From Thiohalobacter sp. (GTDB lineage Bacteria; Pseudomonadota; Gammaproteobacteria; DSM-19610), in the NCBI GenBank assembly GCA_026984515.1, contig JALSRZ010000109.1, forward strand, positions 1 through 49,231: 49,231 nt of DNA. The letters run 5' to 3'. How positions within the stretch are numbered: position 1 is the first letter of the stretch; every line of letters begins with the position of its first letter. The translations under genes were made by a program, and so were the position numbers. Positions 45,883 to 49,111 of the stretch are shown here, one piece after another. The notes beneath the pieces are model-generated. The model did no database searches. It had not been told where the DNA came from and worked only from the letters and a program-made list of their open reading frames with translations.

Positions 45883-45959
<77 letters not shown>

Positions 45960-46057: not shown

Positions 46058-47098
46058 GTGGCAACGATTACCAGGACACCCTCGAAGACGTGGAAGGCAA
46101 TTGTCCGCAAACGCGGCTGGCCGACCACAATCAAAACCTTTCGCACCAAACGCGATGCGGAAGACTGGGCGCGCAGTACGGAAGACGAAATGGTGCGCGG
46201 TGTTTACATCGACCGTACTGAAGCCATCCAGTTGCTGCTCAAGAAAGCGCTTGACCGCTACCTGCTGGAAGTTTCCGCAACCAAGAAACCGAGCACGCAT
46301 GCAGCCGAGAAGCACAAGGCCAAGGCACTAAAAGCCGAACTCGGTGACTACAGTCTGGCCGCGCTTAATCCGGGCCTGATCGCAAAATACCGCGATGATC
46401 GGCTGGCCGCCGGCAAGTCGGCGAATACTGTGCGTCTGGAACTCTCCCTGCTCTCACACCTGTTCACCATTGCCATCAAGGAATGGCGGCTGGGGCTGAT
46501 CTACAACCCGGTCATGAATATCCGCAAACCGCCACCTGGACAGGGCCGCAACCGGCGACTGAGTGCCGATGAGGAAAAAACCTTGCTCGAAGCCTGCGAC
46601 AAACACTCCAACCCGATGCTGGGCTGGATTGTGCGCACGGCCCTCTTTACCGGTATGCGCGCCGGTGAAATCATCAGCCTGCGCCGCGGCCAGGTCGATC
46701 TGGTGCGCCGCGTGGTTCGGCTAACCGATACCAAGAATGGCAGCGCCCGCACCGTCCCGCTCACTAATGAAGCAAAAAAGGTTTTAGACAGTGCACTCCG
46801 CAATCCCGCACGCCCTTTCGACACCGACCTTGTCTTCTACGGTGAACCGGGCCGCGACGACAAGCGTAGGCCGTATGAATTCCGCATGGCCTGGAAAAAG
46901 GTTATCAAGAAAACAAAGATCACCAACCTGCGCTTCCATGATCTGCGTCACGAGGCCGTCTCACGCCTGGTCGAAGCCGGTCTTGGTGATCAGGAAGTCG
47001 CGTCCATCTCCGGCCACAAATCCATGCAGATGTTGAAGCGTTACACACATCTGCGTGCGGAAGATCTGGTGGCGCGGCTCGATCAGTTGATGAGCTGA
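46058..47098 (+). CDS. Tyrosine recombinase/integrase of a genomic island
   Basis: A 346-residue site-specific integrase. The catalytic set is complete: R201 (TGMRAGE), K226 (TKNGSAR), H294 and R297 (HDLRHEA), H320 (SGHKS) and Y329 (KRYTHL). The N-terminus (TITRTPSKTWKAIVRKRGWP) is a small arm-binding domain. The start is GTG with GGAAG six bases upstream. It sits 98 bases from the tRNA end in the same direction, the usual position for an integrase using that tRNA as attB. The element probably is active or was recently so. Confidence 0.95.
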   Translation: MATITRTPSKTWKAIVRKRGWPTTIKTFRTKRDAEDWARSTEDEMVRGVYIDRTEAIQLLLKKALDRYLLEVSATKKPSTHAAEKHKAKALKAELGDYSLAALNPGLIAKYRDDRLAAGKSANTVRLELSLLSHLFTIAIKEWRLGLIYNPVMNIRKPPPGQGRNRRLSADEEKTLLEACDKHSNPMLGWIVRTALFTGMRAGEIISLRRGQVDLVRRVVRLTDTKNGSARTVPLTNEAKKVLDSALRNPARPFDTDLVFYGEPGRDDKRRPYEFRMAWKKVIKKTKITNLRFHDLRHEAVSRLVEAGLGDQEVASISGHKSMQMLKRYTHLRAEDLVARLDQLMS

Positions 47099-47179
47099 AT
47101 TCCTCCACCATAGTTCCTGTCCGTAATCAAGTTCGAAAGCACCCCTGTAGGTGCGTGCTTTCGAGCTGGTTAACATATC

Positions 47180-47258
47180 TCTCCATTGGCAAGCTTGTGT
47201 CTCCATATTTAATCAATGGAGATCACGAGCAATGCAAACCGTTGACAGTTCACGGTGA
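47180..47258 (+). ncRNA. Structured leader, copy A, with an 8-codon ORF
   Basis: GTGTCTCC (47197-47204) can pair with GGAGATCAC (47218-47226, one bulged base), hiding a Shine-Dalgarno sequence. Upstream TCTCCATTG (47180-47188) can instead pair perfectly with CAATGGAGA (47214-47222), so two exclusive folds compete for the SD. Nine bases after it, ATG opens an ORF of only eight codons (47232-47258, MQTVDSSR). The layout is a leader-peptide or decayed gene start. Similar to copy B at 47353-47394. Confidence 0.45.
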
Positions 47259-47352
47259 ATTAATTCTGGAACATAACTTCTCGTTTACACTGCTATTTAA
47301 GTGTTTTCATAGCACGTTGCTAAGAGTTTAGTTCTGGAAATCACATAATGGT

Positions 47353-47394
47353 TTGTGCAATCTCGTGTCTCCGAATCATGCACAAGGAGATCAC
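47353..47394 (+). promoter_or_regulatory. Structured leader, copy B, before the small island gene
   Basis: The same GTGTCTCC (47365-47372) and GGAGATCAC (47386-47394) words as copy A, again able to fold over the SD (GGAGA) of the gene starting at 47400. Here an outer stem TTGTGCA (47353-47359) / TGCACAA (47379-47385) can form as the competing fold. SD-to-ATG spacing (9) and the first codons ATGCAA are identical in both copies. Confidence 0.5.
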
Positions 47395-47399
47395 TGACT

Positions 47400-47651
47400 A
47401 TGCAAGATACTGCAAGCCTCAGCACGGCAACACTGGAGAACCAACTCACCGAACATTACGGTCTGTTGCTCTCACAAACACAACTGGCGGCACTACTGGG
47501 CCGCACCACTGGCGGACTGCGCTACAGCCTTTGCTACCCCTGTGACCAGCAGACACGAGACCTGAAGGCCTGTGGTCGAAAGATAGGACGACGTATCTAC
47601 TACCCGGCCAACGAGGTCGCTCAGATCATCATCGGCAGCAACGGCGAATAA
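47400..47651 (+). CDS. Small putative DNA-binding protein (AlpA/excisionase-like)
   Basis: An 83-residue protein with an HTH-like middle (LLLSQTQLAALLGRTTGGLRYSL) and a wing-like end (GRKIGRRIYYPANEVAQIIIG), the pattern of small winged-helix proteins such as AlpA or excisionases. I cannot name a family with certainty. The ATG at 47400 is chosen because AAGGAGA lies nine bases before it and the frame upstream lacks such support. It is located between the integrase and the HTH protein, so a role in island excision or in control of its genes is likely, but inferred. Confidence 0.65.
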   Translation: MQDTASLSTATLENQLTEHYGLLLSQTQLAALLGRTTGGLRYSLCYPCDQQTRDLKACGRKIGRRIYYPANEVAQIIIGSNGE

Positions 47652-47678: not shown

Positions 47679-48473
47679 GTGAGTATTGCAGCAATGAACT
47701 GGGCCTGGCACCAGGACATCAAGCCGGTGCCCAAGCTGATCCTGATGGCGCTGGCGGACGCGGCCGATGATCAGGGTATCTGCTGGCCCAGTGTCGCGAC
47801 CATTGCCGTCAAGGTGGGTGTATCGACGCGCACCGTGCGACGTGTGATGCAAACGCTGATAAGGCGTGAATTGTTATCAGCCGAACAACGCTACCGCAGC
47901 GACGGTTCCTGTTCCTCGAACCGATACCGGTTGTTGCTGGAAGGGGGTGACAAACTGTCACCGGCCCCTGACCGTAGCGACACCACCCCCGGACACCCGT
48001 GCCAGGGTCCCCCTGACTGCAGTGTCATACCAGGAACCACCATAGGAACCGTAAAAGAACCACCACTACCACCTGAGCCAGAAAAACACCAACCTGATTG
48101 TGGTGGTGGGGAATTATTTGATCTGGTCTACCCAAAAGGACTGTTGCCTGCGGAACGCTCACAGGCAGATGCAATGATTGGCGCACTTGCGGCACCACTC
48201 AACCAGCAGGTACTGGACGAATGGGCCGGGATCATCACCGCCGGTGCGATACGTTCATCGACGCTGGGTTGCCTGCGTGCGCTGGTCAAACGAGCGCAGG
48301 AAGGCACGTTCGCACCAGAGCGTGCCTTGCGAGTTGCGCAGGCAAGGACGGTGCAACAGCGTGTGGCCTCCGCACACACCGCTGTGCCTGAGCCGGGTCC
48401 GGTTGACGAGAACAATGCGCTGGTGCGTCGCCTGATGGCGATCGGCAAGCGGGTGACAGGCGATGGCCGGTGA
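47679..48473 (+). CDS. HTH (replication protein O-like) island protein
   Basis: A 264-residue protein with an N-terminal winged HTH (MNWAWHQDIKPVPKLILMALADAADDQGICWPSVATIAVKVGVSTRTVRRVMQTLIRRELL, about 6-66). It continues with a proline-rich linker of low complexity (residues 95-145) and an arginine-rich helical tail. The layout is that of HTH_36/RepO-like proteins encoded next to integrases in mobile islands. The start is taken as GTG at 47679 (MSIAAMNWAW); the ATG at 47694 is also possible. It lies 27 bases after the small DNA-binding gene, so the two form one unit. Role in replication or copy control of the element is inferred. Confidence 0.7.
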   Translation: MSIAAMNWAWHQDIKPVPKLILMALADAADDQGICWPSVATIAVKVGVSTRTVRRVMQTLIRRELLSAEQRYRSDGSCSSNRYRLLLEGGDKLSPAPDRSDTTPGHPCQGPPDCSVIPGTTIGTVKEPPLPPEPEKHQPDCGGGELFDLVYPKGLLPAERSQADAMIGALAAPLNQQVLDEWAGIITAGAIRSSTLGCLRALVKRAQEGTFAPERALRVAQARTVQQRVASAHTAVPEPGPVDENNALVRRLMAIGKRVTGDGR

Positions 48474-49111
48474 TTTTACTGAAACCACATCAATCTGCAC
48501 GTACCGAAGGCTGCCCGATACAACACAATGTAACCTGTGTGACAGGCGTTTGCCTGGCGCACGCGTTGCTCCGTACGAGCGGCCGTGTCACTACACAGCG
48601 AAGCGCGGTAGTGACGCGGACGCATTCGGGACTTAAGTACGCAGCGTGCCAGAACTTTTTAAAAGCGCGCCCGACTGCCCCGGGGATTATGGTGTCGTTT
48701 GCCAAATATTTTTTCAACATTGTGAACGACAACGACGAAAGACTTGTCTATACTCGCCACACGCAATCAGTTTTATCCGTGGCCACTACGGCAAAGTGGC
48801 AACCAAGGCACCTCCGGGTCGTGCAACAGGTGCATCAGCGAAAGCTGCGATCCTTCCTCAACCTCAGGCAGCGCCGAAAGGTCTGTCCATCTTCGAAAAA
48901 AGAACGACCAACGGGTCTGTTCTATCCAGCAGGCGTTTGTCTGCTTTCAACTCACGAGCTATGTGCCCGACGATTGCCTATGGCGGTTGTTTTGCCGTGC
49001 TCATTTTCCACAATTGCAGGATCGTCCTGCTTACTTCAAAGGAGGTGTTAATCACCATCATAAGAACGCCCGTGCTCGGGCATGTTGGATGTCGTGTGGC
49101 TATTTCTGCGT
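48474..49111. other. Long stretch without a convincing gene
   Basis: Several frames are open here (48470-49051 and 48646-49191 on the plus strand), but their products lack domain or composition signs of real proteins. The stretch holds an 11-bp hairpin at 48584-48618 (core arms GTCACTAC / GTAGTGAC, extended with a G-U pair), a possible -10 TATACT near 48765, and a perfect SD (AAAGGAGGTG, about 49037-49046) that is not followed by an ATG; a GTG inside that SD opens 47 codons to the stop ending at 49191. A structured RNA, an oriT or decayed genes are all possible. Confidence 0.4.

Follow-up and report, generated by a model that had tools for sequence, protein, structure and literature searches.

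We propose, with a probability of roughly 60%, that in islands integrated at tRNA genes a hairpin sequestering the SD gates a replication module of translationally coupled HTH and Rep genes and that, of the two copies of this leader in the window analyzed here (a stretch of 49,231 nucleotides from Thiohalobacter sp.), copy B is the working gate while copy A is an orphan leader. The hairpin would act in cis at the RNA level, its 5' arm (a GGCAANCT box and the anti-SD) pairing with the SD, the spacer and part of the HTH start codon, and this pairing would hold translation of the HTH gene low. Once opened, whether by some signal or by simple leakiness, it would allow ribosomes to reach Rep as well, via the overlap between the HTH stop and the Rep start. 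Copy B would thereby gate the replication module of such islands, which carry defence genes, and copy A, its HTH gene having been lost, would remain as an orphan hairpin between the integrase and the gate. Direct support comes from the conservation of the leader, its covarying pairing at a fixed position, the linkage of HTH and Rep genes, and the overlap of their start and stop codons. The relevant features of the window are as follows.

45883 to 45959, plus strand: tRNA-Met gene, the presumed integration site of the island (ARAGORN, Rfam tRNA).
46058 to 47098, plus strand: tyrosine integrase gene (PF00589, E 2.6e-31; phrog_1, E 6.7e-67).
47123 to 47174, plus strand: inverted repeat of the TTCGAAAGC type, 3' of the integrase gene (sequence inspection).
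47180 to 47240, plus strand: copy A, a putative orphan leader (folding; covariance model R1, 50.7 bits, copy A being in the model), with GTGTCTCC at 47197-47204, GGAGATCAC at 47218-47226 and ATGCAA from 47232. The anti-SD (47197-47204) pairs with the SD (47218-47221) in a predicted fold that has an outer pairing of GCA 47189-47191 with TGC 47233-47235 and a stem of 47193-47206 with 47216-47230, in which U47223 is bulged.
47180 to 47222, plus strand: competing 9-bp stem of copy A, likewise SD-hiding (TCTCCATTG at 47180-47188 with CAATGGAGA at 47214-47222).
47232 to 47258, plus strand: 8-codon ORF of copy A, MQTVDSSR (ORF reading; comparison with genome G007).
47348 to 47408, plus strand: copy B, the leader of the HTH gene (folding, homologues, covariance model, arm-shuffle test), with GTGTCTCC at 47365-47372, GGAGATCAC at 47386-47394 and ATGCAA from 47400. 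The anti-SD (47365-47372) pairs with the SD and 3' arm (47386-47394), and an outer pairing of TGCA 47356-47359 with 47401-47404 takes in part of the start codon.
47353 to 47385, plus strand: competing 7-bp stem of copy B, which would free the SD (TTGTGCA at 47353-47359 with TGCACAA at 47379-47385).
47400 to 47651, plus strand: gene for an 83-aa HTH protein, weakly HTH_17/AlpA-like (HTH_17, E 0.026, below the cutoff; orthologues).
47679 to 48473, plus strand: gene for a replication initiator, phage O-like, HTH_36 (phrog_1032, E 1.7e-23; HTH_36, E 6.1e-12).

The leaders lie within the order rpoD, tRNA-Met, integrase, copy A, copy B, HTH and Rep, upstream of the window end, which is also the terminus of the contig; 98 bp separate the tRNA-Met gene from the start of the downstream integrase gene, and tRNA genes also flank the loci of several relatives with the same gene order. 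The original prediction described duplicated leaders about 168 bases apart, each followed by ATGCAA, and this duplication is exact in its geometry: both copies have the layout GCAA-CT-GTGTCTCC, 13 nt, GGAGATCAC, 5 nt, ATGCAA, and every part is offset by precisely 168. As the exact pattern occurs just twice in the 3.37-Mb host genome, where a control pattern does not occur at all, the duplication is not due to chance. Sequestration of the SD, which had been claimed for both copies, is likewise borne out by the predicted folds of A and B, and copy B does precede a likely DNA-binding gene, namely that of the HTH protein, after which comes the phage O-like initiator gene. The folding energy is exceptional for copy A (z -4.9 over 56 nt, 0 of 200 shuffles) and ordinary for copy B (z -0.5).

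The HTH protein of the window scores 15.2 bits against Pfam HTH_17, below the gathering cutoff of 27, and nine of the 11 members of its family match HTH_17, all weakly (best E 0.0013). A profile search of the PDB gave no credible match, and an AlphaFold model of the HTH protein, for which three sequences were used, was of low quality (mean pLDDT 49).

Orthologues of the HTH gene were gathered by protein similarity within the genus, the class and selected families, together with two from a pattern scan (L034 and L045); apart from these two, they were chosen without regard to RNA properties. The resulting set, some members of which are mutually close, comprises 15 orthologues besides the gene in the window and spans several gammaproteobacterial families. 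A recognizable version of the leader lies upstream of the HTH gene in all 15 (it is weakest in L054, L063 and L074), and most leaders have a GGCARNCT box 5' of the stem. When 369 gammaproteobacterial genomes were searched with a covariance model, every match at E 0.01 or better stood before this HTH gene, copy A excepted. After training on the nine closest leaders, a model recovered only some of the held-out divergent ones, and a sequence-only model performed about equally. Rfam covariance models gave nothing above threshold on the leaders, only the flanking tRNA and sub-threshold matches elsewhere, and searches of plasmids and phages were negative. An exact-pattern scan of GTDB genome contigs returned 45 stretches. 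Just three of these (L034, L042 and L045) are homologous; the others (e.g., those at Salinicola ferritin-like and Aquisalimonas genes) are by appearance chance matches or unrelated leaders, and the single match in a scan of viral contigs lies within a gene and was judged to be chance.

Leader and HTH gene keep company with two unrelated types of Rep, and the kind or orientation of the integrase varies among the loci, so that, judged by its gene neighbourhoods, the leader is part of the HTH-Rep module rather than of the integrase. The suggestion that the leaders control genes for excision or establishment of the island consequently stands only in part: the leader does precede an HTH gene and a replication (establishment) gene, but it stays with these whatever the integrase.

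For the pairing itself, the duplex energy of each leader's 5' arm (-48 to -23) with the RBS window (-22 to +4) was set against that of shuffled versions of the same arm. Among 11 divergent leaders, all values in this arm-shuffle test were negative (Stouffer z -8.7, Fisher p 1.6e-9); without copy A the Stouffer z was -7.2, and seven control placements gave z between -2.1 and +1.0. When arms were exchanged between leaders, a leader's own arms also paired better (z -3.7 to -4.9, p 4e-4 or lower), but one of five control placements scored as well (z -3.4/-2.6); exchange alone is thus insufficient, and the case for covariation rests on the arm-shuffle test. The letters of the two arms are altered in step: GTGTCTCC/GGAGATCAC in the window has its counterparts in GTTCTCC/GGAGAAC (L069), GTGTTC/GAACAC (L061), GTCTGC/GCAGAC (L063) and GGCCGTGT/ACACGGCC (L062), the last of these forming a stem over the spacer between SD and ATG and not over the SD. 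Column covariation is weak in a MAFFT alignment with few gaps (0.170 vs 0.141, 30 of 500 shuffles) and RNAalifold gave no consensus structure for the leader alignment, in part because the register of the stem differs from leader to leader; it is on account of these shifting registers that the test of pairing in fixed windows was used. Covariation, proposed earlier as a check on the leaders, is accordingly seen as pairing kept at a fixed position despite changed arm letters, with weak column counts, and the leaders have what is expected of an SD-sequestering hairpin, a 5' arm that is complementary to the SD and start, conserved in position, and covarying.

Compared with shuffled leaders, the energy needed to open the RBS is strongly higher in copy A, L063 and L069, but not in copy B, L053, L054, L060, L061 or L074, and the SD of L059 is predicted to be open. 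Since high opening energies are predicted for some members only, either the gate must be stronger in some leaders than in others or the energy model must be inadequate.

The stop of the HTH gene, or of what remains of it, overlaps the start of Rep (ATGA or GTGA) in 10 loci, nine with full HTH genes and one (L102) with a mini-ORF. There is no overlap in the window, where the gap is 27 or 42 nt and Rep starts at GTG 47679 or ATG 47694, nor in L052 and L060 (the gaps in these three loci span 12-42 nt); the Rep start of L045 is uncertain. In many of the overlapping relatives, Rep has no evident SD of its own. With its start overlapped by the HTH stop and no evident SD, Rep would also receive ribosomes upon opening of the hairpin; we infer that the hairpin represses translation and that Rep depends on translation of the HTH gene.

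L102, a locus from the same genus that was not used in training model R1, was found by that model at 26.5 bits (E 0.017). Its hairpin is intact (arm pairing p 0.0005-0.01), and its former start codon, TTG, pairs with CAA, in the place of the UGC-GCA pairing of other leaders. The middle of the HTH gene, however, has been lost: what is left is a 24-codon in-frame ORF whose end is a recognizable HTH tail (FYPVLEVTRIITG vs YYPATEVARIIIG) and whose TGA overlaps the ATG of Rep. L102 may be regarded as a natural experiment on the shrinkage of a regulatory gene to a coupling peptide. An AlpA-like gene of another family adjoins the integrase in this element (positions 1051-1317 of L102, minus strand), and may have taken over the role of excisionase. 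In L094 (G264), the HTH stop has been lost, apparently through ATGG in place of ATGA, and the HTH frame extends into Rep in another frame.

Copy A leads, as originally stated, only to MQTVDSSR, and outside the window it is found in G007 (HyVt-581) alone. The ATG of this ORF is ACG in G007, whereas the stem-loop there has a single change, compatible with pairing. Because the start is ACG in the sole relative that has copy A, the 8-codon ORF is not conserved and does not represent a general leader peptide; its end also lies 141 nt upstream of the HTH start. Control by a leader peptide, as had been suggested, therefore appears unlikely, and the ORF is probably the relic of a lost HTH gene start. 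Copy A itself most likely began as the leader of an HTH gene that later disappeared (compare L102), or as the recombination junction of two islands. Between the host genome of the window and G007, the 42-nt stem-loop of copy A differs by one change, with pairing kept, compared with about 10% elsewhere in the intergenic region. A binomial estimate made by hand gives p of about 0.06, and the unchanged block of 49 nt gives about 0.01, values that are suggestive only; the low divergence of the stem hints, by this weak statistic, at some retained role. One form such a role might take, which we consider very doubtful, is that of a stand-alone RNA acting on the gate of copy B, e.g., as a decoy or as an anti-SD on the SD of copy B; the leader would then be an independent translational gate travelling with replication modules, and the HTH would be dispensable as a protein and needed only as a translated coupler for Rep, as the 24 codons of L102 would illustrate.

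The competing upstream arms that were predicted to make the leaders a switch exist, with 9 bp in copy A and 7 bp in copy B, but the stem of copy A also covers GGAG and does not free the SD, so that both folds of this copy hide it, and no alternative stem is conserved across the homologues. That the leaders act as a bistable RNA switch, the TTGTGCA/TGCACAA stem of copy B forming first during transcription, freeing the SD and then yielding, or a ligand choosing between the folds, seems improbable to us. Some evidence does favour it: the SD-free fold lies 0.9-2.4 kcal/mol from the SD-hidden fold in copy B, L052, L057 and L060, the competing pairing is kept through G-U changes in L052 and L055, and the columns of the competing stem covary (0.272 vs 0.141, 0 of 500 shuffles). 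The stem is, however, confined to that one clade (copy B, L052, L055, L057 and L059), is absent from L034, L045, L061, L062, L063 and L069, and has equivalents in L053 and L060 only in other registers, while in copy B of G007 the hidden fold is preferred by 6.4 kcal/mol. A switch may operate in the clade of copy B, where the SD-free fold is near-isoenergetic in several members, but is not a general feature of the leaders. An RNA thermometer has little in its favour: in copy B the predicted opening of the SD is 0.06 at 37 C and only 0.26 at 60 C, and copy A stays closed.

The main rival to an SD-sequestering gate, though in our view an unlikely one, is that the dyad acts as DNA, either as an operator through which the HTH protein regulates its own gene or as part of a replication origin, copy A being a second binding site and the overlap with SD and ATG being ancestral. 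Both arms are common to A and B, orphan copies (copy A, and L102 with its collapsed HTH gene) remain near rep, and copy A of G007 has lost its start codon with the core of the dyad unchanged, all of which would suit a binding site. Such a site is harder to reconcile with arm letters that differ widely against a nearly invariant HTH core, with arm spacings of 10 to 17 nt, with the tolerance of G-U pairs and one-sided bulges, and with a stem that follows the SD and start codon even to the CAA:UUG outer pairing at a TTG start. It is highly improbable that the leaders have no regulatory role whatsoever and simply reflect a homologous gene whose SD and start are conserved, the pairing being inherited and unselected; the ordinary folding energy of copy B, the mixed accessibility results and the weak column covariation agree with this, but neither the fixed-position pairing of divergent arms nor the pairing kept in the later-found leader L102 is expected from descent alone.

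Assuming an SD-sequestering gate, the leader is an undescribed candidate for a cis-regulatory RNA, without a match in Rfam, tied to the replication module of gammaproteobacterial defence-carrying tRNA islands. It suggests how such islands may keep their replication genes silent until needed and, if the gate is real, could be used as a marker for this type of island. The longer stretches read from islands of relatives contain type I restriction-modification, Fic and AbiEii genes and, by this gene content, bear defence-type cargo.

By its name, int-alpA denotes an RNA near the integrase and alpA genes of mobile elements. The leaders in the window resemble it in their setting but match neither this nor any other Rfam family; int-alpA is among the families named in PMC12370729. 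The S004-repA genes of SGI1 (PMC7826253) also belong to an integrative mobilizable element and comprise a small ORF overlapping repA and a stem-loop that masks the SD and start codon, and both the translational coupling and the need for the SD-masking inverted repeat have been demonstrated there by experiment (PMC7826253). Translation of the upstream ORF is required for Rep in SGI1 (PMC7826253), and the HTH-Rep overlap described here would, by analogy, be the same arrangement. However, the stem-loop of SGI1 lies over the start of repA itself and is opened by ribosomes translating S004, whereas our hairpin lies over the start of the upstream ORF, and SGI1 has the activator AcaCD, whereas none is known for the module in the window; the likeness is one of arrangement. 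Coupling of rep to a leader peptide is found in tap-repA of IncFII and similar plasmids, to which PMC7826253 refers; this type likewise has an RNA structure at a start site and a short ORF that lies upstream of rep and is coupled to it, although the upstream ORF of the leader-HTH-Rep loci is usually a full HTH protein, unlike that of tap-repA. PICMI satellites (PMC10803314) are, like the island studied here, small chromosomal islands with an integrase, a small AlpA/HTH_17-type protein and a replication gene; they have the order int-alpA-prim, and alpA is their limiting activation gene. Their replication gene encodes a DUF3987/DUF5906 primase, whereas the Rep of the window is O-like (HTH_36), and the island in the window, unlike PICMI, lies at a tRNA gene and has no known phage helper; a UTR is not mentioned in the PICMI paper (PMC10803314).

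The genome that contains the window has a second island (G000:C173, L057) with the same leader and HTH gene and another type of Rep, in which the integrase is reversed and more distant. Repeats of the TTCGAAAGC type, similar to that at 47123-47174, precede the leader in L057, L061, L062, L073, L074 and L102; as they are found there even where the integrase is reversed, they too seem to be part of the HTH-Rep module. In L034 and L045, toxin-antitoxin-like genes (HigA-like and PIN-domain-like by eye) are inserted between the integrase and the leader, upstream of a conserved promoter-like TTTTC(T/C)ATAG block; a consensus scan for sigma-70 promoters near the leaders gave none that reached threshold. 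Finally, 3' of Rep in the window lies a long, apparently non-coding stretch (48690-49100) with TATACT, CCGGGTCGTGCAACAG, GCATCAGCGAAAGCTGCGATCC and AAAGGAGGTG blocks, which is conserved across islands whose Rep genes differ (81% over 598 nt in L057, 69% in L091), and parts of which are also present in L061, L095 and L102. Rfam gave no match on this stretch, which may serve as an origin or encode a structured RNA that has a promoter of its own.
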